From: Defluviitaleaceae bacterium
Lineage (GTDB): Bacteria; Bacillota; Clostridia; Lachnospirales; UBA5962
Assembly: GCA_009787355.1 (NCBI GenBank)
Contig: WRGD01000151.1
Location: 1 to 64,000 of the forward strand
Direction of reading: 5' to 3'
Length of the DNA: 64,000 nt
Shown here: positions 8,698 through 51,182 of the stretch, piece by piece
How positions within the stretch are numbered: position 1 is the stretch's first letter
Layout of the letters: each line of letters opens with the position of its first letter
Program-made: the position numbers and the translations under genes
The notes under the pieces: model-generated
Seen by the model: only the letters and a program-made list of their open reading frames with translations
What the model was told of the DNA's origin: nothing
Databases searched by the model: none

Positions 8698-11600
8698 ATG
8701 AAAAGTTTTTTAGCTAAACTTTTAGTAACTATTTTTTTTGTCGGGTATATAATACCTATTTTTAATATTTTTTATGTTTTTGCACAAGATCCAGTTGTTA
8801 TACATAATAGAGATGACGGTATGCAAGTTGGTGGTACAGCTACTTTGTCTCCATCTGTTATAAATACTGTTCCTGTAGACCAAATGTATTTTACCGTACC
8901 ACTATCTGATTCTAGTGCTACTCCAAATTTGTATACTTTATCTTTTTGGATGCCAACGGCAGATGCAGCAACAACAGGTTATCAACGTATACAAATAGAA
9001 ATGGTGCGAAATGCAAATATTCTAGATTTTAGGTATAGAGTATTTAATCAAAATGGCAATCCTATTCCTTTTGCTAATTTTTCTGTTTTTAGTAATACAG
9101 AAGAGGACTTTTTAAATGTTCTTCCACCTGCAGCAGCAAATACATTTTTAGATAGACATCCAAATTTGCATATAAATACTGGAAATTTCGAAAATCCAGC
9201 ACATCCACTAAATCCAAATGACCCTCCAGCAGACCACCAATTTCCAGAAATCCCTAGTCAGGGTGTTATTGTATCTGACAGAAGTGGTACTAATATCGAT
9301 TATCCTGCTTTTAGAATAGACGGTTCTGGCGAATTTCAAAATGGTTTTTCTTTTAGGTTTGCAAATAGAGAAATACACGTAGTATTACAAAACAATACTT
9401 TGCATTTTGCAACTAGTGGTTTCGAACCTGGGTATATATATGAAATAGAACTTGAGAGAAATGGAACCCATATTAGAACATTAAATGTTGTTTCTGATTT
9501 AGATGTGGCAAATGTAAATATTATACCTTTTGCGAATGGTAATAGAACAATTTTACAACAAAACTACAACGAAATAACACCACCTTGGCCAAACAACAAT
9601 CCTGCAATTAGTAGTGAGCCATTTGTTAGCCTTACTACATTAAACAATAGTATGCCCTCTACTTGGCCGAGACTTAATAGGGAACCGATAGATAGAAGAC
9701 ATGGTTATAATACTTTTGAAAATATATGGCCTGGTGAAGAAGATGCAGGTAGTAGACTTATAGGTAATCCTCCTACTCAACAAGATAATGGCTCTGGAAT
9801 TATTTTTCAAATACCGTTACCTAGATTTACAAACCCAACTAGAGTTGCAGGTAATATTATTCCTTTAAATATAAATTTAGAATTTCCTAGAGTAGAAATA
9901 GAGGATATTTTAAGTGCTAATCCGAGTACTGTTTCAGTAGGTGGGGAAACAAGATTAGTAAGAGCTCATAAAATGAACGATGATTATATACTTGTTAGAG
10001 TTGATGATATTCCAGCTGGTTTTTATCTTCCTAATTCTGATATGTGGTTTTCTTCTCCATTGCCTTTTACTGTTGTTTCCACAGTAGTAAGAACAGCACA
10101 AGTAGAAGATGTGCATACATTTTTAAATTATCGTGTTAATAGAACTCCTGCAGGTTACACTATTACAATTATATCTCCTTATGATGTTCCAGCAGGATTT
10201 AACCCCCAGTATAGACTACTTAGAAACGTTGTAGTAGGTGATGAAATGCAGGCGGCAGGTCATGCACAAACACCCGGTCAAGTGCCATGGACAAATAGTA
10301 CAACTTTTGCAATTACAGACCCTGTTGAAAATTATTTTTACTATATACAATTTAGAAGAGCACCCGGAGCAAATATAATATCTAGCCAAAGGATTTTAAT
10401 CTCTACAGACCCAGAGGCTGCTTATATAGAAACACCATTGTTTTTTGAAGCAGAGGGTACGCACGAAAGAATCCCTGGAGATGTATTAGCTACACGTGGA
10501 AATTATGTTTTAAATCTAGCTTGGGATATGGGTTCAGAATTAGATATAGCGAGATTATTTAATAGGTACTCTGTAGAAGTTGGTAATTTTCATGAAATTA
10601 GTTTAGATTACGATGTTATTTGGGGCTTTAGTCCAAGTCAGATATATGAATCTATAGAAAACATGACAGCAACGGGAACTTTAACTACAATACGAGCAGT
10701 TTTGAGAATACCTAATACTGTAACTCTTCCTATGGTAGTTACACCAGAAATTGTTGCAAGTTTACCGTTTCAAGTAGAATACTTTCTTGTGAATAATGCG
10801 GGTGCTGTTTTACCAAATCCGTATATAAGACCAGAACAAGGTACATCACCTGCACTTGAGATACACCCAGATTTTAGAGGACCACTTGCAGAAAATAATA
10901 ATAATATTTTTAGAAGAGCTTTGCCGGGTGGAATAAGAGCTGGTCAGAGAAGTTTTGTGTCTAATATTGTATTAAATGTAGACACAATAAGGGCAGGTTC
11001 TATAGGTTTAGGCCCTCATCAAAGACCTTTTCAATTTCCATATACGTATTTTCTTAGAATTACACCAGTTAGACATTCTTTAGCAAATGGAACTTTACAA
11101 TCTTTGCCTGTAGAATTTCCAAGTGATTTTTCTTCTATTACAATATCTGACCATGATGGAATGCAAGTACCACCTCCGCAAAATTTAAGAACGGGTAACC
11201 CTGTTACATCACATACCCATGTTGGTCAAGAGGTAGACAGAGTTTCTTTTGATGTAAACTTTGGTATAGCTGTAGATTCTATACGAAACTTTGTTACTAA
11301 TTCACATGGGCTTATTTTTAATAACATGGTAGATGATATACAAATAGATATATCATTATATATATCTGAAAATGAAGCCATATTAAGAGATTTAGTAGCA
11401 AATACTTCTGGTGGTGATTGGGATGATGCAAATAATCAAATTTTAAATCCTAATGTAAATTTATTACCAAGACATAGATTTTCGGGTCTTGTAAGAGTTC
11501 CATTTATAGGCTATATACAAGATTATAAGCATCATATGTATTTTTCAAATTTGGGTGATGATATTGGTATGACAGTACCTATAGGGCAATATCCACAAGG

Positions 11601-14202
11601 CAATTTAAGAGATGCACTACGTAATGGAAATATAGTTGCAATAACAGGTATAAATGTAGAGCGTAGCGATTTACAAGATATTTTATTAGACACAAATTTA
11701 GAACCTGTAAATATAACTCTTACATTAGACGGATTAGATGAAAATCAAGAATATTTTGTAGTTTTAGATACGATTATAAGACAAAGAGGTAGTGCAATAG
11801 ATAATAACAATCAAGTACCTTTATATGTTGCAAATGCTTCTGTTTTTTCTAATCTTTCATCTATAATAACAGATGGTACTTTGCAATTGCCAGACGGAGC
11901 AAACCAATATCCATCAGCACCAAATTTACGAGTAGAAGATTATGGGATGGATTATGCTATTTTAGAATGGGACCGCATACCTTATACACCTAGTATGACT
12001 GATGGATATGCAGAAAGAATAGAATACGAGCTTATAAGAGTAAGAGCACCACAGCCTACAGTTAATTTTATGAACAATAGAGCTGATTTATCTGCAATAT
12101 GGCAATTACTTTATCCGCAGCACGCACCAATCCCTGCTAGTTTAACAGCTTTTAGAATGATAAATTCAAATGATGCTAGCAGAACCATACAAGCATTTGA
12201 TGGTTCTAATTGGTCAAATGCTCCTGCTACAGTAAATTATACATCTGAAACAACGTATAACCCTAATACGGGTGTTGGTGTTGTTTCTGTAAGAGATAAT
12301 GGTTTAGCATCTAACACAGCTTATTTTTACTATTTAAGAGCTGTACGAGTAATATATTTTAACGGTACAGAGGTAAGACGATTAAATTCTATATTTGCAA
12401 ATAATACTGTTACAACTACTATATCTGGTGCTCCTATCAATTTAGTCATAGAGGGTGGCAGGGAGTTTGATAGACAACGAGAAGTAATGATAAGTTTTGT
12501 TGCTCCAGTTGCTACTTTAGAAAATATAAGAAATAATAATATACGCTTTCAATACCAAATCCAAATAGATAATGGAGAATGGGGAGAACCACAATATTTA
12601 GATTCTAATTTTTTACTTGCGTCGGGAAATAACGAAAGACGAGAAATAACAATAAATGGTGAAGAAAGTTATCATCATTGGTTTTTATACCATATTAGAG
12701 CTGGGATAGAGCCAGGAAGATTACACAATGTACGTGTACGTATGGTACAAACATTAAACGAAGGTAGAAGTTATTCTATTTGGTCTAATACTGGTGTATG
12801 GCTTGCAGATACAGATACAGCTCAAAATGAAGAAGACCGTATAACAGGTGATTGGCTAGACCATCTTCGTGAAGAGCTTTACAAATTATTGCGTAGTCCA
12901 TATTTACGTATGAGAGATGATAACGGGGCTTTCCATGTTGTTTTAAGACCTAGCTTGTTTGCAGAAATGGTAAATAGTGCTGTAGGTGGTCAAATTGTAT
13001 TACCTTTTAATATGGCAACTCAAACTAGTTATTATATACCTGCTTCCAGTTTTATTACTTTTGTAAATAATGAACTTAGTTTTGTTATACAAGGTAATCA
13101 TATGCAGATTGTAATACCACATAATGCAATAGATATAAATAACAATGGAGCTATAATAAATGCAGTACAAGCATTACGTGCAAATCAAATAGAAGATTAT
13201 TTAGTAAGAGTAAATATAAACTGGAGTATAATGCCACAAATACATGGTTTAGATACTATTACACCAGTTGCTGATATATTATTTACCCTTGTTTCTGTAG
13301 ACGAAAATCTTGGTATTTGGGAACAGTATACTATAGAATATTTAGCAGATAGGATAGATGATTTATCTTCGCTAGAAATGTATGTAAATAATATAATAGA
13401 GGCAATAAGAAATGATGCCGACAATTTTGTACTTCAAAGACACACTTTAAATATAATAGAATATGCTGAGAGAGAATTTGTAGATACAGTTAGAAATAGC
13501 TTTAATAGTATACGTGCTAATAGACCACAACTTCCTGTTGTATTCGATTCTCCTCTTATGTTAAGCGTAAACAATAGTGGCGGTACATTATCTGCTGTAG
13601 AACCTTTCCATTTTGTAAACAATATGTGGGCAAGAGTTGCAACTAGCTTTAACAATGGTAGCTCTGTATTTGCCGCTCATCCAGGTTCTTTTGTTTTTAC
13701 TGGTAGAGAGATAAATATACCTGGTGTTGGGTCAGGTGCAGCAAATACGATGGGTATAGTTGCAAGACATGGATTAGATGAGTTTTTTAATGGTGCTGAT
13801 GGTGTCATAAATATAAACGACACTGCAACAAGAGGTATGCTTGTAGAATCTGTAGCTCGTATGTTAGGGGCTACTAGAGGTACAAATGCGAATACTTGGT
13901 TAAGAAATAATGGTATATCTCTTCCACCGGGTAATGCAAATATGCCAATATCTACTGGAGAAGCATTGCACATGATTATGCTTGTATATTCTGAAAGGCT
14001 TAATACACCAGTAGAAAACATACGTATTACAAATTTTGCACCTACAAATGGTTTAACTTTAAACCCTGCTTTTGCTACTTCGTTTAGGGCAGCTATAGAA
14101 ATAGGGCTTTATAGAGAAACAGACTTACAACCGAATGCCTCTATATCAATAGGAGAACTTTTAGATGTACTTACAAATTTAGATAGACTTATTGGTCTAT
14201 AA
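8698..14202 (+). CDS. Giant secreted protein with Fn3-like modules and SLH-like C-terminus
   Basis: 1834 aa. Residues 1-30 are a signal peptide (KSFLAKLLVTIFFVGYIIPI.., probable cleavage after VFAQ). The body is a chain of beta-rich modules; several look like fibronectin type III repeats (APNLRVEDYGMDYAILEWDR; TAYFYYLRAVRV). The last ~150 residues (GVININDTATRGMLVESVAR.., IGLYRETDLQPNASISIGEL) resemble divergent S-layer-homology repeats, suggesting attachment to cell-wall polymer. No catalytic motif was found. The ribosome binding site is a run of six G (8689-8694) just before ATG. It forms a tandem pair with the paralogue at 14324. Likely a cell-surface scaffold or adhesin. Confidence 0.75.
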   Translation: MKSFLAKLLVTIFFVGYIIPIFNIFYVFAQDPVVIHNRDDGMQVGGTATLSPSVINTVPVDQMYFTVPLSDSSATPNLYTLSFWMPTADAATTGYQRIQIEMVRNANILDFRYRVFNQNGNPIPFANFSVFSNTEEDFLNVLPPAAANTFLDRHPNLHINTGNFENPAHPLNPNDPPADHQFPEIPSQGVIVSDRSGTNIDYPAFRIDGSGEFQNGFSFRFANREIHVVLQNNTLHFATSGFEPGYIYEIELERNGTHIRTLNVVSDLDVANVNIIPFANGNRTILQQNYNEITPPWPNNNPAISSEPFVSLTTLNNSMPSTWPRLNREPIDRRHGYNTFENIWPGEEDAGSRLIGNPPTQQDNGSGIIFQIPLPRFTNPTRVAGNIIPLNINLEFPRVEIEDILSANPSTVSVGGETRLVRAHKMNDDYILVRVDDIPAGFYLPNSDMWFSSPLPFTVVSTVVRTAQVEDVHTFLNYRVNRTPAGYTITIISPYDVPAGFNPQYRLLRNVVVGDEMQAAGHAQTPGQVPWTNSTTFAITDPVENYFYYIQFRRAPGANIISSQRILISTDPEAAYIETPLFFEAEGTHERIPGDVLATRGNYVLNLAWDMGSELDIARLFNRYSVEVGNFHEISLDYDVIWGFSPSQIYESIENMTATGTLTTIRAVLRIPNTVTLPMVVTPEIVASLPFQVEYFLVNNAGAVLPNPYIRPEQGTSPALEIHPDFRGPLAENNNNIFRRALPGGIRAGQRSFVSNIVLNVDTIRAGSIGLGPHQRPFQFPYTYFLRITPVRHSLANGTLQSLPVEFPSDFSSITISDHDGMQVPPPQNLRTGNPVTSHTHVGQEVDRVSFDVNFGIAVDSIRNFVTNSHGLIFNNMVDDIQIDISLYISENEAILRDLVANTSGGDWDDANNQILNPNVNLLPRHRFSGLVRVPFIGYIQDYKHHMYFSNLGDDIGMTVPIGQYPQGNLRDALRNGNIVAITGINVERSDLQDILLDTNLEPVNITLTLDGLDENQEYFVVLDTIIRQRGSAIDNNNQVPLYVANASVFSNLSSIITDGTLQLPDGANQYPSAPNLRVEDYGMDYAILEWDRIPYTPSMTDGYAERIEYELIRVRAPQPTVNFMNNRADLSAIWQLLYPQHAPIPASLTAFRMINSNDASRTIQAFDGSNWSNAPATVNYTSETTYNPNTGVGVVSVRDNGLASNTAYFYYLRAVRVIYFNGTEVRRLNSIFANNTVTTTISGAPINLVIEGGREFDRQREVMISFVAPVATLENIRNNNIRFQYQIQIDNGEWGEPQYLDSNFLLASGNNERREITINGEESYHHWFLYHIRAGIEPGRLHNVRVRMVQTLNEGRSYSIWSNTGVWLADTDTAQNEEDRITGDWLDHLREELYKLLRSPYLRMRDDNGAFHVVLRPSLFAEMVNSAVGGQIVLPFNMATQTSYYIPASSFITFVNNELSFVIQGNHMQIVIPHNAIDINNNGAIINAVQALRANQIEDYLVRVNINWSIMPQIHGLDTITPVADILFTLVSVDENLGIWEQYTIEYLADRIDDLSSLEMYVNNIIEAIRNDADNFVLQRHTLNIIEYAEREFVDTVRNSFNSIRANRPQLPVVFDSPLMLSVNNSGGTLSAVEPFHFVNNMWARVATSFNNGSSVFAAHPGSFVFTGREINIPGVGSGAANTMGIVARHGLDEFFNGADGVININDTATRGMLVESVARMLGATRGTNANTWLRNNGISLPPGNANMPISTGEALHMIMLVYSERLNTPVENIRITNFAPTNGLTLNPAFATSFRAAIEIGLYRETDLQPNASISIGELLDVLTNLDRLIGL

Positions 14203-14240
14203 AAATTAAGTACGGTATTTGAAAAAATCATAAAGTAAAT

Positions 14241-14273
14241 ATAGAAGTGAAATCCTCACATTTTCACTTCTAT
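14241..14273 (+). terminator. Hairpin between the two giant surface genes
   Basis: ATAGAAGTGAAA pairs with TTTTCACTTCTAT, followed by a weak T-rich stretch. It could terminate or attenuate the first gene's transcript before the second. Confidence 0.55.
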
Positions 14274-14323
14274 TTTACTAAATTAATAAATATTAAAATA
14301 TAAAACGGAGGTGTTACTAAAAA

Positions 14324-17300
14324 ATGAGAATACCCAAAATAAAAAAAGTCATTGCTGTATTTTTGGCTATGACTATTTTTGCTGTTTATATGCCTTTTAC
14401 AGTTTTGGCAAATCCGCAAAATCCTATTAACTCAGATTTTCTTTCTATTGAAGATACCGCAGCCACTGGTTCTAGTGGTGCGTGGAATCCAAGATTAACA
14501 TGGCAATGGTTGCAAGATAGAGATGCAGCTGCAGGTCAAAATCCAGCTGATATTCATCCACCAGAACGTTTTAATATACATGTTAGAAATGCTACAACGG
14601 CGGGTCCTTTTACGGGTGCAACTATTAATTCTGACCCTCTTGTGTCCGTGCCTAGAACAGATATAGTTACACATACTGCAGATGTTCCGAGTATACCAAA
14701 TACAGTCGTAACACAGGGTAGTATATTTTCTTATATAGTTGTTCCGGAACATTCACATTGGGTAAATGTTCCCCCAACTGTTGAAAATCCAGCAGGGATT
14801 GCAATGATTCCGGTTAGACCTACAACAGAACAAGTTTTGGCTGTAAACAATTTAACAGGTAGGTCTCCACAAAGACTGTATATGACAGATATAGTTGTTA
14901 CAGAAATAAACACAAATGAACCAGGCATTACAATAGAATGGCATAATCCAACATTTGATGGTATGCAAGTTTTTGATGGTTATAGAATTAGCTTTAGAAG
15001 TAGTGGTAGTCCAAATTTTACAGAGTTAACAAGAATAAATCAAAACAGTTTTGGTGTAACAGTAGTAAGCCGAGGTGGTCGTTCATTTTGGCAATTTGAA
15101 ATACCTACTTTAACAATTGAAAATATACTAACAGTAGGTACAAACTACGATTTTAGAATAGAGCCAATGCACAGTAATAGAATTGTTACTAATTCTTTTA
15201 CTGGTGAAGGATATTTTAACTCTGGTCAATGGATTAGTATAGATGGTATAGAATATCAACTTGCTTTTGGTATAGGTAGAGAGTTTATAGTAGAAGGTAT
15301 CCACCTTGCCCCATCTCTTAGTCTTGTTCCTATAGGTAGTGATTATATATCTTTAAATTGGGATGTTCCTTTATCTGTAAATAGTCAAAATGGTCGTATA
15401 GAGCTTTGGAGTTCTACAGAAGAAGTGTTTGATTTTTCTATATTACCACCGGGAAGACTAGAAACATCTTGGGTTAATACTCCAGCATCAGAACTTGCAA
15501 GTTTTCATGTAATGAGAAGACCAACGGTACCGACATGGTTTATTATAAGGTATATTATGCCTGTTGGTGGACAGCCAGTTAATATTGGACCACAGAATCC
15601 GCCACCTTCTCCACATATGGTTTCAAATTTGGTGTTCTTCGACCCAAATTTCAACGATTTTATTGCATATAGACCGATGATAAGAGATTACGAAATACAT
15701 TCAAATGGTCAGCCTACTATACAATTAGCATGGGATTCATTTGTACGTAGAGCTTTTACAGAAGAAGAGCAAAATCTTGCAAGTCATAACAACGGATACA
15801 TAATAGACCGTGTTATGGAATATGAGTTTTTCGTTACAGACAATTTAGAACATTTACGAGAAATGATAGAATTTGCAAAAGAAAATATTATAACACCAGA
15901 AGAAGCCAATCTTATAATAAGTTCTTCTACTGTAGCAAATATGCCAACAATACCTGGCCCTTTGGCAGTACCTCCAACTTCAGCGTCTGGTGTTAATAGA
16001 TTTTCAAATGCAACTCAACAAATAAGTACATTTTTCAATTCTACGCAAGGACAGAATATGCCTATTGTTGCAAACAATGTTTATTATATAGGTATTCTTG
16101 CCAGAAGAGTTATAAATGGAGAAAGGTCTTTGCAAGTTTCACAAGCTGGTGAGATTGGTATTTTTGTACCACCTACAGACCCAGTAACTACAGCTCCAAA
16201 TGATGTACCAGTAAGAATACAAACGATAAATGGAGAGCCTAATATAACTCATAATTCTATAGGTATAGAATGGAATTTTGTATGGTATGAAGCATTCAAT
16301 CCTATTACAAACAATTGGTACGATAAAATAGGTATACAAAATGGTAATTTAGTTTTTGGTAATGTGCCAAATGCAATTAATTTATGGGAAAATTCTATAG
16401 CTCTACAGCCATACGATGTAGCACGTAATGCTATAATATCAGCACTTGGTACAGACCCTGGTGCAAATCTTGTAATTAGACAGATAGATGTAAATAGAGG
16501 TATGCCTGCTAGTTTTCAATTTCATGTAACACCTTTTACGAGTATTGGAGAAAATCCAGAAGAATATATAAGAACAATTCAAACGAACGATGCACCTTGG
16601 ACAGCTATACCGGGTCAAGGTAGTGAAGTGGAGAATAGTGGAAATCCTGCAAATCATAGGTATCATGTTTTAACAGAATTACAGCCAAATACAACGTACG
16701 CTATATTTTTTAGAGCAGTTAATACAAATGGTCCAGCTATGGGGCCGTCATATGTTTCAGGTACTACTATTATTACAAGACCAGGTTTAGTACCTACTCC
16801 AACATCTCCAATATTAAGTGTTGTTGAAACAACAGATAGCAGTATTAGACTAAGGTGGAACGGAAGCCTTGAAGATTTTAGGTATGAACTTTTTCACTCT
16901 ATGTTACTTGTAGATTATCCAACTGGTGGTGGTAGAGTAGCTATTACTCCAGAATATATAGCACAAAATGCACAGCAAGTAGGAGAGAATATATATTTAA
17001 CAGTAAGTGGTCTTTTTCCAAATACAACTTATCATTTTTGGATAAGAGCATTTAACTCAGAGGATGTATATTCTGGTTGGTCTAACCCAGCAACTGGTAC
17101 AACATTAACTTTACAACCACCTCCACCACCTACAGCAATAAATTTTGCATCTGCTACTAGTCTTAACATTTATAATTTGCAAAATTCTTCGGAGATAGAA
17201 CAAGGGCCATATAATATGATTTTGGAATTTGGTCGTATCCATGCCGATATAGTAAACACTGTCCCGGGACCAGCTAGAACAGCATACCAGTCATCGCCAA

Positions 17301-18844
17301 ATGATAGAGCTAATTGGCTTACTTCTAGTGGTTTACCTAATTCTACTCATCTTGTGAATTTCAGGGGATTGGTAGCGAACAGACGACACTATGTAAGAGC
17401 TAGAACACTACTTACAGTTTTCAGGCAAGGAACAAATATTGTATGGGAATATAGTTATGAATTACAAATATCGGATAATCCAAATTTTCTAGATGCTGTA
17501 AGTATAATATTACCAACACCAACACATACAGCAAATGTACCAGGTGAAGTGCTTGTAATAACAGGTGATTGGAATGTTGTATATCCATTTTGGACACAAA
17601 TGACCGACACAGAATTTGATAGTGATGTAAATCCAGATTTATTTCCATTGCCAGACCAAGATTTTTACTATATAGGACCAAATCCCGGTAATAATTTTAC
17701 ACTTACTTTCCGTATTCGTGGAAATGAAATAGGAGCAGATGGAAATAGAGATAATCAAGTAGACCAAAGATTTATATCTAGACTTGTAACAAATCGTGTA
17801 TTTAATTTTGATGTAGATGTGAGTAGTTGGAATGGACCTTTTCCTATAAGAAATCGTGTTGTAGAAATACCTTTTGGAGTTATAGAGGCTTTCAATGAAA
17901 GACAGATAGACTTAAATATAAATGCTGGAAGTTTATCTCTTACTATACCATATAATAGTATTGTAACAGATGAAGTTTTAAATATGCCAAATATTAATAG
18001 ATTTACTCCAACATTAATAAATCTTAGCGAAGATAATATTACACCTACAGGAGCTGAAAATGGTTTATTTACAACACCACAAAATTTAACTGTTTCGTTT
18101 GGTCGTGGCCCTAATGCTGTAAATATTTCTGAGTTTGAAAGACCAATAGAAGTAAGCCTTGCTATTCCACAGGCTCATAATGTAAATTCTTTCAACCTTT
18201 CTGCATATATAAACAATCCAAATAGTGGTGGATGGAGTAGAATGCCTAGTATATTTAATGCACCACTTGCTACACCAAATGTTCCAACTTTAGATATGCA
18301 AAGAGGAAATATTGTATTTAATACAAGAGAGTTAGGAGCGTATACAGCTATTAGTACAGCACCTGCTGTGGGTATAGCAGGACAGCAAACTCTCGAAGCT
18401 ATGCACCGTGTAAGTACAAATATTCGTATTACAGATTTGGCAAACTACGATGAAAATCAAGTAATACACGCAAACCAGTTTAACCAATTGGTTTATGCAA
18501 TTGCACGTGGCAATGATAGTGTTTCTATAAACACAGCATTAAATTCTACTAATATACAAAGCCTAGGGCGTTCGGGTATGCTTGTTAGTGGCAATAATGT
18601 ATCACAAGAGGCAGGTATATCTTCTCTTGTAAGGCTTTTTGAAGTAAGAGAAGGTAGCCCTGTAACATTCTTCCCAGGTGTAGCTCAAAGCTCTATATCG
18701 AATATAAATACAGCAAACCCTACATTTTTGGAAAATTTGCTAAAAGCTGAAGCCCTCGGATTCTTTAGAGTACAAAATATTGAACCAACAGAACCTATGA
18801 CATTTGGTGATGTTTTTCATATTTTAGATATAATTTTAAACTAA
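14324..18844 (+). CDS. Second giant secreted Fn3-like/SLH-like protein
   Basis: 1506 aa, a paralogue in layout of the upstream gene. It has a signal peptide (KKVIAVFLAMTIFAVYMPF, probable cut after VLA), Fn3-like modules (SLVPIGSDYISLNWDVPLS; SVVETTDSSIRLRWNGSLED; NTTYHFWIRAFNSEDVYSGW) and a C-terminus like that of its partner (YDENQVIHANQFNQLVYAIA.., MTFGDVFHILDIILN) that reads as degenerate SLH. No enzymatic motif recognised. The start follows GGAGGTG with a 10-nt spacer. The terminator at 18868 closes the unit. Presumed wall-bound surface protein acting with its neighbour. Confidence 0.72.
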   Translation: MRIPKIKKVIAVFLAMTIFAVYMPFTVLANPQNPINSDFLSIEDTAATGSSGAWNPRLTWQWLQDRDAAAGQNPADIHPPERFNIHVRNATTAGPFTGATINSDPLVSVPRTDIVTHTADVPSIPNTVVTQGSIFSYIVVPEHSHWVNVPPTVENPAGIAMIPVRPTTEQVLAVNNLTGRSPQRLYMTDIVVTEINTNEPGITIEWHNPTFDGMQVFDGYRISFRSSGSPNFTELTRINQNSFGVTVVSRGGRSFWQFEIPTLTIENILTVGTNYDFRIEPMHSNRIVTNSFTGEGYFNSGQWISIDGIEYQLAFGIGREFIVEGIHLAPSLSLVPIGSDYISLNWDVPLSVNSQNGRIELWSSTEEVFDFSILPPGRLETSWVNTPASELASFHVMRRPTVPTWFIIRYIMPVGGQPVNIGPQNPPPSPHMVSNLVFFDPNFNDFIAYRPMIRDYEIHSNGQPTIQLAWDSFVRRAFTEEEQNLASHNNGYIIDRVMEYEFFVTDNLEHLREMIEFAKENIITPEEANLIISSSTVANMPTIPGPLAVPPTSASGVNRFSNATQQISTFFNSTQGQNMPIVANNVYYIGILARRVINGERSLQVSQAGEIGIFVPPTDPVTTAPNDVPVRIQTINGEPNITHNSIGIEWNFVWYEAFNPITNNWYDKIGIQNGNLVFGNVPNAINLWENSIALQPYDVARNAIISALGTDPGANLVIRQIDVNRGMPASFQFHVTPFTSIGENPEEYIRTIQTNDAPWTAIPGQGSEVENSGNPANHRYHVLTELQPNTTYAIFFRAVNTNGPAMGPSYVSGTTIITRPGLVPTPTSPILSVVETTDSSIRLRWNGSLEDFRYELFHSMLLVDYPTGGGRVAITPEYIAQNAQQVGENIYLTVSGLFPNTTYHFWIRAFNSEDVYSGWSNPATGTTLTLQPPPPPTAINFASATSLNIYNLQNSSEIEQGPYNMILEFGRIHADIVNTVPGPARTAYQSSPNDRANWLTSSGLPNSTHLVNFRGLVANRRHYVRARTLLTVFRQGTNIVWEYSYELQISDNPNFLDAVSIILPTPTHTANVPGEVLVITGDWNVVYPFWTQMTDTEFDSDVNPDLFPLPDQDFYYIGPNPGNNFTLTFRIRGNEIGADGNRDNQVDQRFISRLVTNRVFNFDVDVSSWNGPFPIRNRVVEIPFGVIEAFNERQIDLNINAGSLSLTIPYNSIVTDEVLNMPNINRFTPTLINLSEDNITPTGAENGLFTTPQNLTVSFGRGPNAVNISEFERPIEVSLAIPQAHNVNSFNLSAYINNPNSGGWSRMPSIFNAPLATPNVPTLDMQRGNIVFNTRELGAYTAISTAPAVGIAGQQTLEAMHRVSTNIRITDLANYDENQVIHANQFNQLVYAIARGNDSVSINTALNSTNIQSLGRSGMLVSGNNVSQEAGISSLVRLFEVREGSPVTFFPGVAQSSISNINTANPTFLENLLKAEALGFFRVQNIEPTEPMTFGDVFHILDIILN

Positions 18845-18955: not shown

Positions 18956-18984
18956 TTGACAAAAAATATAATAAATAGTAAAAT
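18956..18984 (+). promoter_or_regulatory. Sigma-A promoter of the HTH regulator/peptide unit
   Basis: TTGACA (18956-18961), 17 bp, TAAAAT (18979-18984). Predicted leader about 100 nt before ATG 19093. Confidence 0.8.
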
Positions 18985-19092
18985 AATGTTATTAATAATT
19001 GCATTTTACATTAATATAAGATTTTATAGTTTTTTGATGTTCTATGCATAAATTTATTAAAAATTTAATTAAATAGAGCTAGGGGTGAATTA

Positions 19093-20175
19093 ATGATAGA
19101 ACCAGATACCAAAGAAAATTTGCTAAATGCCTTTTTTAATATGAAAGGAAATAGCAGACCAGACTTACTTCCAAGGATTGAAGAAGAATTAAAAGAATAT
19201 AGGCAAAAAAACGGTTACGATAGACAAATTGAAGATGTTTTGCTTTTGTGTACTGCGTTTAAATTGGAATTAGAATTTAATGATTTTGAAGAAGCTTGTA
19301 AAACTCTATTACCAATAATTGAAAGAGAAGCTAATAACCCAAATGAATTAGATTTAACCGATATTAGAATTATAACATTGACACTTGCTCATGTGCCAAC
19401 TTATGTTCAATCTATTTTGATTGGTAAAAAATTATTAAAAAACCTACAAAAATATACTAGTTATAAAGGATATTTTCGTTTAAAAATGGCTATCCATGCA
19501 AATACCGCTTATAGGATAATAAGAGCAAAATATTTTGATGATGTAGAAAATTCTTATGAAGAATTGAAAAATGAATTTTTGACACATATAGACACAGCAC
19601 TTGCAATATGTAATCGTGAAGATTTTTTTGATGCTGCTAAAGGAGTAAATTTAGCAAGAAAAGGTATTTTCTTAGAAGATATGGAGCTTATAAACAAAGG
19701 TTTAAATCTTACTAAAGAAAAAGGAAATGAACATCAATATAAAATGCTTGTAACTGATGTAGATAAATATAAATCATATATTAAATTTCCTACAACAGAA
19801 GCAAAATTAAAATATATAATTGGTAAAAATATCAAATATCATCGTGAAGCTAGAAATATATCCCTAAGTGATTTAGCAAGGGCAATTGGTGTCAGTTATT
19901 CTTTTTTATTTCGTATAGAAAAGGGCGATAAAGTTGTTAGTATATATCACTTATCTAAATTTTCAGAAATTTTAGGAGTAACAACCGATGCACTTATATA
20001 TGGTGTAGATGAAAGTATACCGTACTCATATAAGAATACACAAGAAATAAACGAATTTAATGCTATGGCAATGAATCTTAATTCTGTAGAATTAGGTTTT
20101 GTAATGGCTACAATTAAAGAATTGGTAAGAATGAGAAAAAAAATAATTAAATTTGAAAGGAGAGAAAAAGAATAA
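19093..20175 (+). CDS. Helical-repeat regulator with C-proximal XRE/HTH_3 domain (RRNPP-like candidate)
   Basis: 360 aa. Residues 1 to about 235 are all-helical and TPR-like in texture. Residues 243-304 are a clear XRE helix-turn-helix (GKNIKYHREARNISLSDLAR.., SYSFLFRIEKGDKVVSIYHL). About 55 residues follow. Known peptide-sensing RRNPP regulators (Rgg, PlcR, PrgX) put the HTH first and the helical repeat after it; here the order is reversed. The start follows GGGGTGAA. The stop codon overlaps the ATG of a 24-codon hydrophobic peptide gene (TAATG), the layout expected of a receptor with its own pheromone. A DNA-binding regulator is well supported; the peptide-sensing role is inference from context. 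Confidence 0.8.
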   Translation: MIEPDTKENLLNAFFNMKGNSRPDLLPRIEEELKEYRQKNGYDRQIEDVLLLCTAFKLELEFNDFEEACKTLLPIIEREANNPNELDLTDIRIITLTLAHVPTYVQSILIGKKLLKNLQKYTSYKGYFRLKMAIHANTAYRIIRAKYFDDVENSYEELKNEFLTHIDTALAICNREDFFDAAKGVNLARKGIFLEDMELINKGLNLTKEKGNEHQYKMLVTDVDKYKSYIKFPTTEAKLKYIIGKNIKYHREARNISLSDLARAIGVSYSFLFRIEKGDKVVSIYHLSKFSEILGVTTDALIYGVDESIPYSYKNTQEINEFNAMAMNLNSVELGFVMATIKELVRMRKKIIKFERREKE

Positions 20176-20249
20176 TGGCATTTCTTGTATATTATATAAT
20201 TGTAGGGTATTCTTTTTTTAAACCTTTTGGAGAATTGTTTGGAGAGTAA
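20175..20249 (+). CDS. Overlapping 24-aa hydrophobic peptide (candidate pheromone precursor)
   Basis: ORF of 25 codons starting MAFLVYYIIVGYSFF and ending FGELFGE. Its ATG overlaps the regulator's stop by one base, and GGAGAG lies 10 nt upstream inside the regulator gene. Size, hydrophobic N-terminus and position downstream of a helical-repeat/HTH protein resemble SHP and Phr-type signalling peptides. It is closed by a strong terminator at 20294, so regulator and peptide make one transcript. There is no cysteine and no lantibiotic leader. A tiny membrane peptide with another role is the main alternative. Confidence 0.55.
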   Translation: MAFLVYYIIVGYSFFKPFGELFGE

Positions 20250-20293: not shown

Positions 20294-20339
20294 AAACCGT
20301 CATTTTGGACTAATATCGTTCAAAATGATGGTTTTTTTT
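20294..20339 (+). terminator. Terminator of the regulator/peptide unit
   Basis: AAACCGTCATTTTG pairs with CAAAATGATGGTT (one G-U) and is followed by eight T. Confidence 0.88.
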
Positions 20340-21236: not shown

Positions 21237-24200
21237 TTACCTTACTTGACCGATATATATTACTTCTACTTGAGCAGTTTCAGGAAACCAAGTAACAATT
21301 GCTCCTAAACTTTCACTTGCAAAGCGTAGAGGTACCATAGTTCTATCTTCTATTATTAAATCTGGAATGAAACTTAAATTTAGTAAACTTACTTTACCAG
21401 TATCTGCATTCCAATTTATATCAATACCTAACATATCAGATAAAGCTCTTAAAGGAATATGTGTAAGATTATTTACTATAATAGGTGCTATATCGCTATT
21501 TATACGATTATTTTGTGCTAAATCTATCATAGTTATATTATTTATAGATAGCATAACCCTATTAAGATTTTCTACATATTCTATATCGTAGCGTCCCAGA
21601 GCTGTTGTTTCTAATCTAAATAAACCATTTTCGTATCTACCTCCTAAAAGATTTCTATATTTATACGTGAATCTATTATAACGAGTATAACTTATATTTT
21701 GCATAGCCACTAATCTATAAGTGTTTATTCCCATAGGTATTTCTATATTTGCAATTATTGTAAAAGGCTTTGTTATTCTTATTGTTTCCCCATTTGAATA
21801 TATGTTTACTTCAAAGCTGAGTATATAATCACTTTCTATAATTTTTATTTCTATTTCGAAATTTTCGTTATAGACTTGTAGAAGATATTCTATATATTCA
21901 CTTGAGATAATTACTATTATATTTTCATGTTGTAGCTCTATTCGATTTTCTAAAGAAATAAGATTTCTTATTTCTTCTCCTGTTAGTATTAGTGATTCAG
22001 GATATTCTGTTTGTTCTTGTTCTGTTTGAACTACTTGTGTATTTTGTGTTGCTTGTGGTAAAGATGGTGTTACTGGTATTTGTGGTGTTGAAGTTGGCGG
22101 GTTCGTTGTAACGGGGGGTATAACAATAGGAACTTCTGGTTCTATAGGTTCTATAACTTCAGGAACTTCTGGATTTATAGGTTCTATAACTTCAGGAACT
22201 TCTGGTTCTACAGGTTCTATAACTTCAGGAATTTCTGGTTCTACAGGTTCTATAACTTCAGGAACTTCTGGATTTATAGGTTCTATAACTTCAGGAACTT
22301 CTGGTTCTACAGGTTCTATAACTTCAGGAACTTCTGGCTCTATAGGTTCTATAACTTCAGGAACTTCTGGCTCTATAGGTTCTATAACTTCAGGAATTTC
22401 TGGCTCTATTGGCTTATTTATAGTTATATCTGTGCTATTTGCTATTATCCACACTTCAAAATTTCCAGTATAATTATTACCACGCCAATGCACAGCTGCA
22501 CGTGAAATATTTAAATAATCTCCTGAGTTAGCTATACCATTCAAATTGAACCTTAAATGCACATTTGAATTTTCTATACCTAAAATATTGTTATTGAGTC
22601 CAACTGTAGCATTTGTACTTGCAAGTAATACATTTTCAAAGCTAACGTACATACCTTGCATACCAGTATTTCTTAGCTGCAATACGTCTGTAATAGGCAT
22701 AGGTAGAATAGGATTAGGCTGATTTTCTAATACATTTATAGTTTGTACTGTAAACTGTGGTTGTATAGAATGTGTTGTCCAAGTAGTTCGGAAACCTGTA
22801 ACTTCTACCCATTGTCCTACAAATTGTGCTAAATCACCACTTCGCACATTATCTGTAGCAAAAAGCATAATAGCAGAATTTAGCTCCTGAGAATCTTGTA
22901 AGAAAACACGATTTGTAAGATTTCCAGCTTGAACATTCGTTACATATCCACGAAGTTTTATAATATCATCTGAAGCAGGTCTTGAATTTGCTTCGCTAAT
23001 TGTTAGTAGCTCTATATTTGGAGGAATTACTTCTGGTGTATGCCTTCTTATTGCTGTAGTATCATTTGGCAGTAATCTTAATTGTATTTCATTTCTAGCA
23101 TTCCACCAGTGTACAACTGCACGGTCTATATATACCCAGTCTCCAGACTGTAAACCAAAATCGCTTATATTTGTCGCATTTATTATGGCACTATTAGTAT
23201 TAAATCTTGGTGGTCCCAATGGATTATTTCCATTCATTGCTCCACTACCTTGTTCTGACCAAGATTCTGCACGTATTGGTGTATTTCCAGGTCCTGTTGT
23301 AGTTAAACTATATATTTGTACAGGTTCATTTATAGACACAATCATGGAACTAAATGGACGAGAAGTACCGTTTAAAACTACCAAATCTGATAAATTATTT
23401 ACAACTACTGGACTTGGTAATGAAACATTTTCTTCTATAATTCTTACACTACCATCAATTCCGGTATTTATATTGTCGACACCATTAAAACCATTTGCAA
23501 GATTTGTTGGCAATTGTCTAACACCTGTAACTTCTACATAATGTCCTATAAAATTATTTGCAGATGGATTAGCTGCAGTATTTGTAGCTGTAAGCATAAC
23601 TAAAATACCATCGGTATTAGTTTCACCTGTAGCATCTTGTAAGAAAAAAGAGTTGTTATTTGTAGCATTTGTAGAATAAACGGCTGTAGCAATACCACGA
23701 ACTGTTACCGTTTCTCCTATGTTTGTTGCTCTTGCTTCGCTAACACTTATATAATTGTTCATTGTTTCAGCGTTTTCAAAATGTGCAACTATATGAGTAT
23801 TTTCTCTTATAACAAAACCAAAATTTACCTCTGTAGACACAGGATTTTCACGTTCTGTGTCTGTATGATTAAACCAGCCAACAAATTCATATCCTTGTTG
23901 TGGTGTAGCATTTACTGTAACCCATTGCGGTATTATATTTGTATTTCGGGTTCTGTCGTTTGGAGCAAATGGTGAGCTTATGGCTGCCGTTCCTCCATTT
24001 GTACTCGAAACTCTAAGCTCTGCTTGCCACACATTGTTTGGAGTTATTTGCCTATATTCTGTACTTGCTAATAATGCTGTACGTATCATAGATACTCCAA
24101 GTTCTTCCCAATCTACAGAAGCTGTAGACATTTCTAAAAGTTCTGTCCAAGAAATAGAAGGCATACCATTTTGCATTACAACACGTGGACCATTTGGGTC

Positions 24201-27200
24201 TAATACCTGCATACCTAACTGGTTTCCTCTTTGATTTCCGGGTAATGGATAATTATCTCCACCTACTTCTCCTATACCACCAAATATAAAATTATTAGCA
24301 ATTACATTGAATACTTGACTACGGTCAGCTCTTATTCTTTCATTAGTATCTGTTACGTACCAATTACCGTCGTAATGATATAATCCTGCTCTTACTTGAT
24401 GTCCTGTAAGCCCTGAAATATTTATAAGAGATAGTAAATCTACACCATGCATTCTAAATATCAATATATTATTATCAAACGGCATTGTACTCAATAATTC
24501 TGCCATATTTGTATTTTGATTTGCCGAACGTGGCCAAAATCCAGTATTACGCCAGCCACCTCCGTTGGATATAGCTACAAAACTTTCATTTTGGTATCCA
24601 TTTACTTCTGCCCAGCGAGTTACATAGTCTAAAACCAGCCTAGAAGACCAAACATCACGTTCTGCACGGTTACTAAAATATATACCATGTGGGCCACGTG
24701 GACCTCTTAGTTCTGTATAAGTTTGGTTTATATACGGCATAATTAAATTTGTAACATTGTCGTAGTGATGTTCTACACCAAAAACTACAGCAGCATTACG
24801 TGTAAAATTTTCTATAGCTCCAACTTCTGAAAGCCAGCTATCTACTCGAGTTAAATCACCATTTTCATCAAAGATAAGGCTAAAACGACCCAATGCACGA
24901 CCGTGATGTTGTGCCTCTATTATAGGTGTATCAGCCACATTTCTATGCACTCTAACATGGACATGACCACCTACTATACCATCAAAATCTAAATTTTGAG
25001 CAATATATGTCATAGATGCACTATTACCACCCATATGTGTTACACCTATAACAGCACCTACACCTCGTTCTTCTCTTAAATAGCTTATGAGGTTTTGCAT
25101 TGCTACCGTATATTCTCTTGGATTATTTGGTGCAGGAGTTCTTGCTTCAAAACCAAGTGTACCCCAACCGCTTACAACACTTTGCATATTTGAAGTCATA
25201 AGTCCTACTAATGCAACTGTTATATCGTGGTCTGGAAAAGATACAATGTCGTAAGGTCTTACAAAGTCTGGGCGTTCCCCCGGTACATTTGGAGCATTGA
25301 AAAGGTCGGCTGCAAGGAGTGTTACTCGTGGGTCGTTTCCAAAATCTCTTGCTCTTTGTGGTCCAAAACTAAACTCGTGGTTACCAAGTGCTGTGTGTAT
25401 ACCGCTTTCTCTTTGTGCTGGGCTATTTTCTGCCAAATATCCCATAAGTGCAAGGCTGGGATTTCCCTGTGTTAAAGTAGATACAGCATATCCATGAAAT
25501 TCATCCCCACCTGTAACAACTATAACATTGTTTGGATTTGGATTTTGATAACGTTGATATTGAATGAACGCAGCTAAACGTGCAGCACCTGGATTTTCTG
25601 GAACTGGTTCACCTGTTTCTACATGACCATGAAAATCGTTAAACATAAGTACATCTATACGCTGTGCACTGTCAAAACTACCATCATCTATTAATGGTCT
25701 TGTAGAACGTATTCGTATATCTCTCATGTGATTACGTGCTGTGGCAGATATTTCACCGCCACCAACGGCTATTTGACTTGTTTTTCTCCATCTTACGTAT
25801 ACTACTTCTTGGTCGTTTGCAAGTTCTGGTAATTGTCTAACAATATTGTTATTCCAAAACCCTGTAAGAGTTATAGGTAGCCCAACTGGTAAATAGTTTA
25901 TACCATCTAAAGACATTTCGAATTGCCAATCACGTGGACCATTATTATTAGCTCCAGTACCTGCGGGATCGGACCTGAAATTAAATTCTACTTCTATAGC
26001 AGCTCTACCAAGTGTCGAAAAAGATGTAGTCCAATATGCAGGTTGTGTTAAATTATTTAGACCACCCATAGCAGTACTAGCTGCATTTATAATTGTAGGA
26101 GCTCCAGAATTCCAGTTGAACATGCGTGGTACACCACCGACTAAAAAACGTATGGGCTCTGCATTTCCATATGTTACCGGCAAATATGGGACTCGTACAG
26201 CTGCTAACTGTGCTGCCGTTGCATTATTTGTTCTACCACCCGCTTGCCAATGAAAATATGCTTCTAGCCCAAAGGAAGGGTCTGGATTTGGAGGGGTTCC
26301 AGCATACTGCATAAACCTAGCTATATATCCCGGCATTACAAAATCTGCAGGCATTACTCTAATATTTATAGTAGTTGTTTGTGGTATATTAGATATATTT
26401 AAAATATTGTTCGGTAGCTCTGTTACATTACCGATTATAGTTATATCTTGTATACCAGTATATTCTGGGTCGAAATCCGAACCCTCTATATCCCATTCTA
26501 CATATGCACGTGGTGTACGAACAACAAGTCCGTAGCTATACGGTGCTGCGGCAGCATTTGGTGGTCTTACTTGTCTTGTATCTCCATCTACATTGTTAAA
26601 TAAATTTGTCTCTATTCCAACCGTTTCTGGTAAATCTTCAAAAATGTCTGTAACAGTCGTTATTATTTCTTCTGGGATTGTAATACGTTGAAAAATTTGA
26701 TAGCCCATTTGTGGTAAACTAGTAACAGAAGATGGTACAGAACCATTTTGGGAACGAACTATTGTATAAATATCAACAAGTGTACGACTATAGTCATTGT
26801 TTATTTGATATGTGCGAACGCTAAAAGTATCATCTGTTACATCTACAACACTAAAATTTCTAAGAAAATTTTGGTTGTATACAGATATTTCACGTCGTGG
26901 CATAGCTGCAACATTGTAAAAACCAGAACCAGACATAGAATTAAAATCTATATGAACAATACCAATAGGGTCTAATACGGCATTTGTAGGTTCTTCACCA
27001 TACATTATGTTTGCATTACTATCTAACCATCTTTGTGATAGAACAGTATTTGTACCCTGCATATGATGCGTGCGACTATAACTATGTGCATGACCGTTTA
27101 AAATAATATCAAATCCGAGTCTTTCAAAATGTGGTACAACATTATTTATAAGCTGTTGTTTTTCTGGAATACCCGGCATACGGTATACAGAATATGCAGG

Positions 27201-28310
27201 GTGGTGCCATAAAGCAACAAACCACTTTGCATCACTGTTTTGGCTAACTGCATTTTCTAAAAAATCAAGTCTTGCACCACTCATAGTACGTGGTGTTCCA
27301 TTACTTCCATTACTATCGTATATATAAAAGAAAACGTCCCCCCAACGTACCCAATAATCGAATTGAGTATATAGAGAATCTGAATGTCTAAAAATATTTG
27401 AAAATCTGCCAGATATTTGACCAGGAGTATTTGAAGCGGGTAGATTATAGTGCATATTCCACAAACGAGTATTCGCATTATTATTTAAATATGGTTGTGG
27501 CTGTGTCCAACCGTCGTGATTTCCAACTATAGGTAATAAAGGAATATTTGAAAAAACTGATGGTGAAAACATACGGTCATGCCTATATTGAGAAATATGG
27601 ACATGTTGATTTATATTACTATTGTTTACAGCCGATGTTTGTACTTGGTCTCCCATACTTAAAATAAAATCGGCATGAGGTACAGAATTTACAGCCAAGT
27701 TCAAAGCACTTTGCCATCTCATACCATCTATTGTAGCTTCTACAGTTCCTGTAGCATCTAGACCATCTCCTGTACCTATTTGTGGGTCTCCAGCTATTAT
27801 AAAACTGAAGTTATTACGTCCACCAGTACGAAAAGTATTTATATTTGATGTAAAACCATTTGCTAATATTTGATATGTGTAAGTAGTATCTGGTGTTAAA
27901 TCATATACTGCTACTTGGTGTACAAAATAAACAAATCCTTCACGTGTAGGAATTAAATTGTTTGTAACACCCATAGCTCCAATGCCTGCGTGTGCTAATA
28001 ATTCTCTCCCAGTAGATGTAATATTTCTTACTTCTCCATTTGGAGCTGTAATATTAAGCTGCATATTTTCATGACCACTATGCCATGTAAAACGCATTTC
28101 GGATACTACTGCTCCAGGAGTCATATTAAAATTACGCAAATTACTCCCCATGGTAGATAAAGTAGATATTGACTCTACAATTGTATTTACATTAGGTAAA
28201 TATGTATTTGTATTTGCAAGTAAAACAACATTTTGTGGGACTAAAAAAACTGTAGAAATAGTTAACGATAAAGCTCTTTTTATCCGTAATAATACTTTTT
28301 TTGTAAACAT
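21237..28310 (-). CDS. 2357-aa secreted double phosphoesterase (PAP-like + 5'-nucleotidase-like)
   Basis: Signal peptide at residues 1-35. Next come a purple-acid-phosphatase-type Fn3 and metallophosphatase domain (about 50-480; AGDPQIG, SMGDQV, VGNHDGW, LWHHPAYS, NGHAHSYSR), beta-rich linkers, and a second UshA-type calcineurin domain from about 885 (NDFHGHVE, GGDEFHG, LGNHEFSFG, THMGG, GGHVHV) with its 5'-nucleotidase C-terminal domain (SNGGGWR). Then follow a Listeria-Bacteroides-type repeat (about 1450), two OB-fold-like modules (about 1515-1700 and 1767-1955), nine 11-residue PEVPEVIEP repeats (1969-2067) and a copper-amine-oxidase-N/stalk-type pair at the end (THIPLRALSDMLGI, RTMVPLRFASESLGA). 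Metal-binding motifs of both phosphatases look intact. Probably scavenges phosphate from nucleotides and phosphoesters at the cell surface. Confidence 0.85.
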   Translation of the reverse strand: MFTKKVLLRIKRALSLTISTVFLVPQNVVLLANTNTYLPNVNTIVESISTLSTMGSNLRNFNMTPGAVVSEMRFTWHSGHENMQLNITAPNGEVRNITSTGRELLAHAGIGAMGVTNNLIPTREGFVYFVHQVAVYDLTPDTTYTYQILANGFTSNINTFRTGGRNNFSFIIAGDPQIGTGDGLDATGTVEATIDGMRWQSALNLAVNSVPHADFILSMGDQVQTSAVNNSNINQHVHISQYRHDRMFSPSVFSNIPLLPIVGNHDGWTQPQPYLNNNANTRLWNMHYNLPASNTPGQISGRFSNIFRHSDSLYTQFDYWVRWGDVFFYIYDSNGSNGTPRTMSGARLDFLENAVSQNSDAKWFVALWHHPAYSVYRMPGIPEKQQLINNVVPHFERLGFDIILNGHAHSYSRTHHMQGTNTVLSQRWLDSNANIMYGEEPTNAVLDPIGIVHIDFNSMSGSGFYNVAAMPRREISVYNQNFLRNFSVVDVTDDTFSVRTYQINNDYSRTLVDIYTIVRSQNGSVPSSVTSLPQMGYQIFQRITIPEEIITTVTDIFEDLPETVGIETNLFNNVDGDTRQVRPPNAAAAPYSYGLVVRTPRAYVEWDIEGSDFDPEYTGIQDITIIGNVTELPNNILNISNIPQTTTINIRVMPADFVMPGYIARFMQYAGTPPNPDPSFGLEAYFHWQAGGRTNNATAAQLAAVRVPYLPVTYGNAEPIRFLVGGVPRMFNWNSGAPTIINAASTAMGGLNNLTQPAYWTTSFSTLGRAAIEVEFNFRSDPAGTGANNNGPRDWQFEMSLDGINYLPVGLPITLTGFWNNNIVRQLPELANDQEVVYVRWRKTSQIAVGGGEISATARNHMRDIRIRSTRPLIDDGSFDSAQRIDVLMFNDFHGHVETGEPVPENPGAARLAAFIQYQRYQNPNPNNVIVVTGGDEFHGYAVSTLTQGNPSLALMGYLAENSPAQRESGIHTALGNHEFSFGPQRARDFGNDPRVTLLAADLFNAPNVPGERPDFVRPYDIVSFPDHDITVALVGLMTSNMQSVVSGWGTLGFEARTPAPNNPREYTVAMQNLISYLREERGVGAVIGVTHMGGNSASMTYIAQNLDFDGIVGGHVHVRVHRNVADTPIIEAQHHGRALGRFSLIFDENGDLTRVDSWLSEVGAIENFTRNAAVVFGVEHHYDNVTNLIMPYINQTYTELRGPRGPHGIYFSNRAERDVWSSRLVLDYVTRWAEVNGYQNESFVAISNGGGWRNTGFWPRSANQNTNMAELLSTMPFDNNILIFRMHGVDLLSLINISGLTGHQVRAGLYHYDGNWYVTDTNERIRADRSQVFNVIANNFIFGGIGEVGGDNYPLPGNQRGNQLGMQVLDPNGPRVVMQNGMPSISWTELLEMSTASVDWEELGVSMIRTALLASTEYRQITPNNVWQAELRVSSTNGGTAAISSPFAPNDRTRNTNIIPQWVTVNATPQQGYEFVGWFNHTDTERENPVSTEVNFGFVIRENTHIVAHFENAETMNNYISVSEARATNIGETVTVRGIATAVYSTNATNNNSFFLQDATGETNTDGILVMLTATNTAANPSANNFIGHYVEVTGVRQLPTNLANGFNGVDNINTGIDGSVRIIEENVSLPSPVVVNNLSDLVVLNGTSRPFSSMIVSINEPVQIYSLTTTGPGNTPIRAESWSEQGSGAMNGNNPLGPPRFNTNSAIINATNISDFGLQSGDWVYIDRAVVHWWNARNEIQLRLLPNDTTAIRRHTPEVIPPNIELLTISEANSRPASDDIIKLRGYVTNVQAGNLTNRVFLQDSQELNSAIMLFATDNVRSGDLAQFVGQWVEVTGFRTTWTTHSIQPQFTVQTINVLENQPNPILPMPITDVLQLRNTGMQGMYVSFENVLLASTNATVGLNNNILGIENSNVHLRFNLNGIANSGDYLNISRAAVHWRGNNYTGNFEVWIIANSTDITINKPIEPEIPEVIEPIEPEVPEVIEPIEPEVPEVIEPVEPEVPEVIEPINPEVPEVIEPVEPEIPEVIEPVEPEVPEVIEPINPEVPEVIEPIEPEVPIVIPPVTTNPPTSTPQIPVTPSLPQATQNTQVVQTEQEQTEYPESLILTGEEIRNLISLENRIELQHENIIVIISSEYIEYLLQVYNENFEIEIKIIESDYILSFEVNIYSNGETIRITKPFTIIANIEIPMGINTYRLVAMQNISYTRYNRFTYKYRNLLGGRYENGLFRLETTALGRYDIEYVENLNRVMLSINNITMIDLAQNNRINSDIAPIIVNNLTHIPLRALSDMLGIDINWNADTGKVSLLNLSFIPDLIIEDRTMVPLRFASESLGAIVTWFPETAQVEVIYIGQVR
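22110..22406 (-). repeat. 33-bp coding tandem repeat, nine units
   Basis: Nine in-frame 33-bp units encode (E/N)PE(V/I)PEVIEP(I/V), a stiff acidic Pro-rich spacer between the OB-like modules and the C-terminal stalk-type domain. Unit number could vary by recombination. Not a CRISPR: there are no spacers. Confidence 0.95.
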
Positions 28311-49925: not shown

Positions 49926-49946
49926 GTTGTGTCTTTCCTGTTTGAT

Positions 49947-50507: not shown

Positions 50508-50545
50508 AAATATAAACCTCCATAAAATTTGTTCTAACATAATAA

Positions 50546-50583
50546 AACTATGTAGAAATTATAAAAATAATTTCTACATAGTT
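50546..50583 (-). terminator. Hairpin after precursor gene lanA3
   Basis: AACTATGTAGAAATTAT pairs perfectly with ATAATTTCTACATAGTT; TTATTAT follows on the minus strand. A partial terminator or mRNA-stabilising stem inside the operon. Confidence 0.55.
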
Positions 50584-50603
50584 AAAATTTATTTGTTATA
50601 TTA

Positions 50604-50741
50604 CTAGCCTTGACAACCAACTAAACCAGTTAATGTAAGCACAGGTATTATTATAAACGAACTAGAAATATGTGCATTAATCTCTACATCTTCTACTTCA
50701 AGTACTTGTAATTCTAAAACTTCATCTTGATAATCGTACAT
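50604..50741 (-). CDS. Class III lanthipeptide precursor 3
   Basis: 45 aa. Leader MYDYQDEVLELQVLEVEDVE, then core from about residue 24: HISSSFIII.. to TLTGLVGCQG. The leader carries the LELQ motif that class III LanKC enzymes bind. The core has three Ser in a row and one Cys near its end, so a ring would span about 16 residues. LVGC also fits a lipobox (L-x-G-C), which is odd next to an LspA-like gene. GGAGAATATG precedes ATG 50741. Confidence 0.8.
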   Translation of the reverse strand: MYDYQDEVLELQVLEVEDVEINAHISSSFIIIPVLTLTGLVGCQG

Positions 50742-50762
50742 TTCATATTCTCCTTTAGTATT

Positions 50763-51161: not shown

Positions 51162-51182
51162 ACCATACCTTCTTTCATAATA

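Follow-up and report, generated by a model that had tools for sequence, protein, structure and literature searches.

RRNPP systems control competence, virulence, sporulation, conjugation, and phage lysogeny. To our knowledge, almost all of them come from Bacilli and Clostridium, and the helix-turn-helix (HTH) is N-terminal in all. RRNPP propeptides have a basic, hydrophobic N terminus (PMC10075063, PMC9765709), and export without Sec is possible, both for SHPs, which are exported by PptAB (PMC7564271), and for leaderless peptides (PMC10518010). RRNPP_detector (Bernard et al. 2023, PMC10075063) looks for a receptor with an adjacent open reading frame (ORF) of 10 to 100 aa at −60 to 400 bp; it required matches to TPR HMMs together with propeptides that were SignalP-positive or resembled SHPs, and it dropped clusters whose TPR region is N-terminal; the receptor family described here would therefore be missed.

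The window, a stretch of 64,000 nucleotides, comes from a draft genome of 2.25 Mb in 152 contigs (G000) of a Defluviitaleaceae bacterium and contains a regulator gene overlapped at its stop codon by a small peptide gene, both exactly where the preliminary description had placed them (Table 1). We consider it likely that this locus belongs to a family of cytoplasmic peptide-receptor/peptide gene pairs that is RRNPP-like with reversed domain order. The XRE HTH, first read at residues 243–304, is recovered at residues 247–300 by Pfam HTH_3 (E 7e-12), and it is C-terminal in all aligned HTH-bearing members, in agreement with the inverted architecture originally suggested. One promoter and one terminator had been said to enclose both genes. 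The terminator has a stem of 17 pairs, and the promoter stays a candidate: promoter-like matches around the locus are no commoner than in shuffles, and the one at 18956–18984 is still the best of them. The palindrome over its −10 box is possibly an autoregulatory operator; comparison with the receptor loci of the same genome showed it to be absent from the paralogues. A search with Rfam models gave no match. Very large secreted proteins (1834, 1506, and 2357 aa, with fn3 and metallophosphoesterase domains) are encoded on either side of the pair, at 8698–18844 and 21237–28310.

Table 1. Genes and signals of the receptor-peptide locus (positions in the window)
Feature	Position	Strand	Basis
Receptor/regulator gene, 360 aa	19093..20175	+	ORF; relatives in own genome and order
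N-terminal TPR-like domain, residues 1–232, candidate peptide-binding domain	19093..19788	+	AlphaFold2, Foldseek, Rgg_C, hhalign
XRE-type HTH, C-terminal, residues 247–300	19831..19992	+	Pfam HTH_3 PF01381, E 7.2e-12
Peptide gene MAFLVYYIIVGYSFFKPFGELFGE, 24 codons, one-base overlap with receptor stop (TAATG)	20175..20249	+	ORF; related peptides beside 7/7 HTH paralogues
Shine-Dalgarno GAAAGGAGAG (stretch AAAGGAGAG) of peptide gene, within last receptor codons	20153..20162	+	Sequence
Candidate sigma-A promoter TTGACA-17-TAAAAT	18956..18984	+	Consensus scan, 11/12 matches, best of region
Imperfect palindrome GTAAAATAATGTTATT/AATAATTGCATTTTAC over −10 box	18978..19009	.	Repeat search; weak, AT-rich
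Intrinsic terminator ending two-gene unit	20294..20334	+	17-pair stem and T-run

AlphaFold2 predicts the N-terminal domain of the window protein as a TPR-like arrangement of 11 helices (pLDDT 93.4, pTM 0.91), in line with the fold anticipated earlier, and the full protein as this domain with the HTH and a pair of C-terminal helices after it. The Foldseek matches of the N-terminal domain in the PDB include Rgg3 (TM 0.62 and 0.59), Rap (0.54), ComR–XIP (0.51), and Rgg2, together with generic TPR proteins at similar scores (LGN and KLC1) and 14-3-3; none of the PDB matches reaches E < 0.001, so the fold taken alone is only suggestive. A viral fold library gave no match, nor did TPR models match the window protein. 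The Pfam model Rgg_C, run against 11 genomes, produced ten matches at E ≤ 0.01, all ten in N-terminal domains of the receptor family, with best E values from 1e-5 to 1e-2 that all lie under Pfam's curated cut-off and with no match in the window protein itself. Aligned by hhalign, 31 N-terminal domains and 10 true Rgg proteins are colinear across the domain and reach a score of 38.9 (P 1e-4); none of 20 column shuffles exceeds 17.3, and a reversed profile gives 16.9. Added to the predicted fold, these sequence similarities make it probable that the domain and the pheromone-binding domain of Rgg are distant homologues, the one located N-terminal and the other C-terminal to the HTH.

We identified 20 receptor-family matches in a whole-genome search of G000, a lower bound like all our receptor copy numbers, since only some candidates per genome were scored. 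Seven are full-length HTH receptors (L001–L007), six of them 42–46% identical to the window protein, the seventh, over the aligned parts; about eight (L008, L010, and L012–L017) have no HTH and end after the helical domain, at about 230–270 aa, L014 being interrupted by a stop codon; and the rest are pieces at contig ends. A related small peptide gene, its start codon assigned by the Shine-Dalgarno sequence (SD), lies beside all seven HTH paralogues, downstream in four and upstream in three. The latter (L002, L003, and L004) have no peptide gene downstream of the receptor, and their upstream peptides (MALFLCLLSMGYIILPLGEIFSY, MTLFLEFINLGCIIFQPLGEVFWS, and MALLYYIYYVAFRPLGQLSAG, respectively) align with the window peptide and share with it one invariant proline (Pro17 in the window peptide); the window and L007 peptides agree at 48% in the alignment. 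One or two peptide genes also follow six of the HTH-less paralogues, several of them abutting the receptor stop codon (frequently TAAATG or TAGATG) and preceded by SDs like AAAAGGAGG; their products include MIFNYLINTFTVIIGGGGNAPRPNF, MFFLYLIKPFDLIGGGWGSEDRPPEQ, and the tandem pair MFYYLINTFHLVIVGGTDSEKQPPY and MLYYLITPFHIVGGGNTEARPPY. L010 and L012 have no intact peptide gene, and positions 2218–2310 of L012 hold what appears to be a decayed one, the frame LFILFDFVGTCFRPPTS without a start. In the G000 DNA around these loci, an ORF of 15–35 codons with ribosome-binding site (RBS) and ATG stands at −10 to +50 after 10 of 163 long ORFs, and nine of these ten are receptor-family members, which makes the association more than chance. 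A profile of 12 peptides returned 15 matches in G000 at E < 0.01 (five absent from the model), every one either directly behind a receptor 3′ end or at a contig end formed by one.

Among 392 Lachnospirales genomes sampled, 15 carry the receptor family; they represent at least three taxonomic families and include Defluviitaleaceae MAGs within family f19 that were found only with a homologue profile. The own-genome receptor profile matched nothing in viral contigs and GTDB contigs, and relatives of the N-terminal domain were not found in phages or plasmids, where the matches covered the HTH only. The receptor tree reveals lineage-specific amplification in each genome, similar to the lineage-specific amplification and tandem peptide copies of known RRNPP families (PMC9765709, PMC11343458). 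Homologues of the regulator lacking the small ORF had been named as evidence against a pair. On the downstream side this is indeed what other genomes show, with no peptide gene after any receptor homologue; a reading of these homologues as peptide-free came from looking downstream only, and the upstream DNA reversed it. Of the homologues from other genomes, 33 had an intact upstream region, and an RBS–ATG ORF of 15–35 codons is present there in 29 by the strict rule, compared with 5.7 expected from dinucleotide shuffles, and in 32 once L027, L070, and L082 are read by eye (L033 has none), alongside the three upstream genes of the window genome. In most relatives the small ORF precedes the receptor gene by 50–235 nt, often in two or three tandem copies, each with its own SD (MRIEIKIRPLGANITDSFE, MRIKIEIRPLTANISDGWD, and MRIEIKIRPLDANISEGWD, the last from G004; MRTISIIKPNNVLIIGGNSWD with two similar copies; MFFSFIFALMFKDFNPVPIIPFSGGEPPCGF with MFFSFIFALMFSESDFMVIMPFSGPEPPCEF). 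The peptide profile from the window genome finds nothing in the 391 other genomes because the peptides diverge fast, and elsewhere the peptide genes are found by position, not by similarity.

The peptides are 16–33 aa long, and 46 of 50 have a proline after residue 4, mostly as Pro-Phe or Pro-Leu behind a hydrophobic stretch; in many, the N-terminal half is hydrophobic and the tail polar and rich in Gly and Pro. Nine groups of closely related peptide paralogues together give a pN/pS of 0.36, with conservation along the whole peptide, and the amino acids are therefore under purifying selection; the tandem copies of the window genome alone give 0.81. Peptide distance tracks receptor distance (Mantel r = 0.52, p = 0.0002, 39 pairs), a correlation that reflects the shared ancestry of the pairs alongside coevolution and is not significant inside the HTH-less clade alone (p 0.39). 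By eye, the window peptide has no N-terminal Lys or Arg, an N-terminal Lys pair is missing from most peptides, and none has a Sec signal; peptides of G004 are charged throughout and not membrane-like (e.g., MRIEIKIRPLDANISEGWD), so the export route is not evident. The Rgg/SHP-like sensing pair first proposed is partly supported, by the paired genes, the predicted fold, and the distant Rgg_C similarity; the basic N terminus and signal sequence of RRNPP propeptides are missing from the peptides.

Several observations concern the peptides of the HTH-less paralogues (L008 and L013–L017; contigs C121, C79, C62, and C97). Most carry a GG or GGG motif followed by a polar, Pro-rich tail of 8–10 aa (RPPY, RPNF, RPPAQ), reminiscent of a double-glycine cleavage site with the mature signal behind it. 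G000 holds only one C39-like peptidase frame, a stand-alone one of 131 codons on a different contig, which is at most a tentative candidate for the GG-processing enzyme. The same layout (hydrophobic, Gly-rich, Pro-rich tail) recurs in three tandem small ORFs of the window without an adjacent receptor (MTILILMAMIRVGTGGSPEPTQPVPGEL, MTILILMAIIRAGGTGSPEPTQPVPGEL, and MTILILMAIIRVGGGGQTEPTQPVPWE, each with the SD TGGAGGATTTTAAACA; 56931–57285, minus strand), located immediately 5′ of an M3 oligopeptidase F gene (55134–56927) and behind an AbgT transporter gene.

In the mechanism that we propose, the N-terminal TPR-like domain would bind the peptide encoded by the adjoining small gene, either whole or trimmed to the part around and after the conserved Pro-Phe/Leu, and binding would alter the action of the C-terminal XRE HTH on promoters, probably including its own. 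We infer with good confidence that the adjacent peptide is the ligand of its receptor; that it is released and taken up again as a pheromone is a narrower call, which we favor only on balance. HTH-less paralogues with peptides may act like Rap proteins or as decoys; a Rap-like phosphatase function was considered for them and found no partner evidence. ABC exporter genes accompany four HTH-less loci (downstream on the same strand on contigs C80 and C110, adjacent on C115 and C130), with only 24 ABC_membrane matches in all of G000, and they may export the peptide, which we regard as a lead rather than proof. G000 also encodes nine oligopeptide-binding proteins (SBP_bac_5), not specific to peptide re-import, and an M50 protease of the RseP/Eep type. 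Two further loci carry ABC exporter genes. On contig C145 of G000 (L092, 12850–17772), a radical SAM protein adjoins two of them, a few kilobases from the HTH-less receptor-peptide locus L014, and forms a possible RiPP cluster. In the window (48255–54388, minus strand), a class III-type lanthipeptide synthetase (51788–54376; RamC_N, kinase, LANC_like) occurs with an ABC exporter (48255–49925), a signal peptidase II-like protein (49947–50540), and small ORFs.

Among the other readings, the one to be taken most seriously, though we think it rather unlikely, is a variant of our own explanation and shares part of its probability: the peptide would never be exported and would act on its own receptor inside the cell, as a small partner or an inhibitor, in an autoregulatory clock or switch. 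The missing canonical secretion signal and the charge of some peptides agree with this, as does the translational overlap, which would give near-fixed stoichiometry in the window lineage. It accounts less well for the many peptides with a hydrophobic N-terminal half and a polar Gly/Pro-rich tail, for the exporters beside four HTH-less loci, and for the Opp-type binding proteins of G000; moreover, leaderless and SHP peptides dispense with Sec signals (PMC10518010, PMC7564271). We find it improbable that the small ORF is instead a regulatory leader peptide, with translation or ribosome stalling controlling the receptor gene in cis and the released peptide idle. Its position 50–235 nt upstream in most relatives and the proline conserved in nearly all peptides (46/50) are what a leader would predict, but in the window and most loci of G000 the ORF lies downstream of the receptor or overlaps its end, up to three tandem copies with separate SDs would be odd for a leader, amino acids are kept along the whole peptide, and the receptor domain resembles a pheromone-binding domain.

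A toxin–antitoxin-like or bacteriocin/immunity module, in which the helical protein would neutralize a toxic hydrophobic peptide and act as its repressor, is more improbable again. Such a module would fit the repeated occurrence of an XRE regulator with a short hydrophobic peptide next to it, and the ABC exporters close to some HTH-less copies; against it, the peptides of relatives are often charged rather than membrane-like, the N-terminal domain matches a pheromone-binding domain, no Pfam or NCBIfam antitoxin match reaches its cut-off (generic HTH similarity only, far below), and HTH-less versions could not repress. A reading in which the overlapping ORF arose by chance, next to an ordinary XRE regulator, is essentially refuted: this AT-rich genome has many short ORFs, and the window peptide scores weakly with the peptide-family profile (E 0.19), but related peptides with an invariant proline occur at all seven HTH paralogues, profile matches are exclusive to receptor 3′ ends, and pN/pS is 0.36.

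Returning to a receptor-ligand pair as the preferred reading, the family combines RRNPP(A) features with departures from them. It has an adjacent small gene (10–100 aa, −60 to 400 bp), a predicted TPR-like fold, and, in G000, Opp-type binding proteins; it has no N-terminal HTH, no propeptide with a basic N terminus, hydrophobic core, and C-terminal pheromone, and no curated receptor or TPR model above cut-off. By analogy the family would work like an RRNPP system, yet we do not file it as an RRNPP member because the N-terminal HTH, signal-bearing propeptide, and curated-model match are missing. We found no description of an inverted Rgg-like receptor family in the open-licence literature. With moderate confidence, we propose a distinct branch of intracellular peptide communication in at least three Lachnospirales families, missed by current RRNPP detectors, in which an Rgg_C-like domain occurs with a C-terminal XRE HTH or alone, the leaderless peptides have 16–33 aa, their gene switches receptor sides, and one genome holds at least 14 receptors. 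If true, this would amount to a large unread peptide-signal repertoire, carried in many copies by individual Lachnospirales genomes, Defluviitaleaceae MAGs among them, and it would imply that the peptide-binding domain was joined to HTHs more than once, or permuted, and explain why detectors miss the family. Since short peptides are encoded beside the receptors, each pair is directly testable with synthetic peptides.

Compared with Rap/Phr, the HTH-less members likewise combine a helical-repeat protein with a downstream, translationally coupled peptide gene and many paralogues; Rap proteins, however, have a 3-helix bundle, 7–9 TPRs, and no HTH, whereas the window family has about 11 helices with no 3-helix bundle seen, an HTH in the window protein, and no Phr-type Sec signal peptide. 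LCP/RopB also places very short leaderless peptides beside an Rgg-like receptor; here, in contrast, the peptides have 16–33 aa with a conserved Pro-Phe/Leu, and the receptor architecture is inverted. With Rgg/SHP and ComR/ComS, the family has in common a neighboring gene for a small hydrophobic peptide that lacks a Sec signal, an XRE-type HTH, a (here predicted) TPR-like peptide-binding domain, and multiple paralogous pairs per genome; it differs from them in its C-terminal HTH, its sub-threshold Rgg_C scores, the absence of an N-terminal Lys pair from most peptides, and its occurrence in Lachnospirales.
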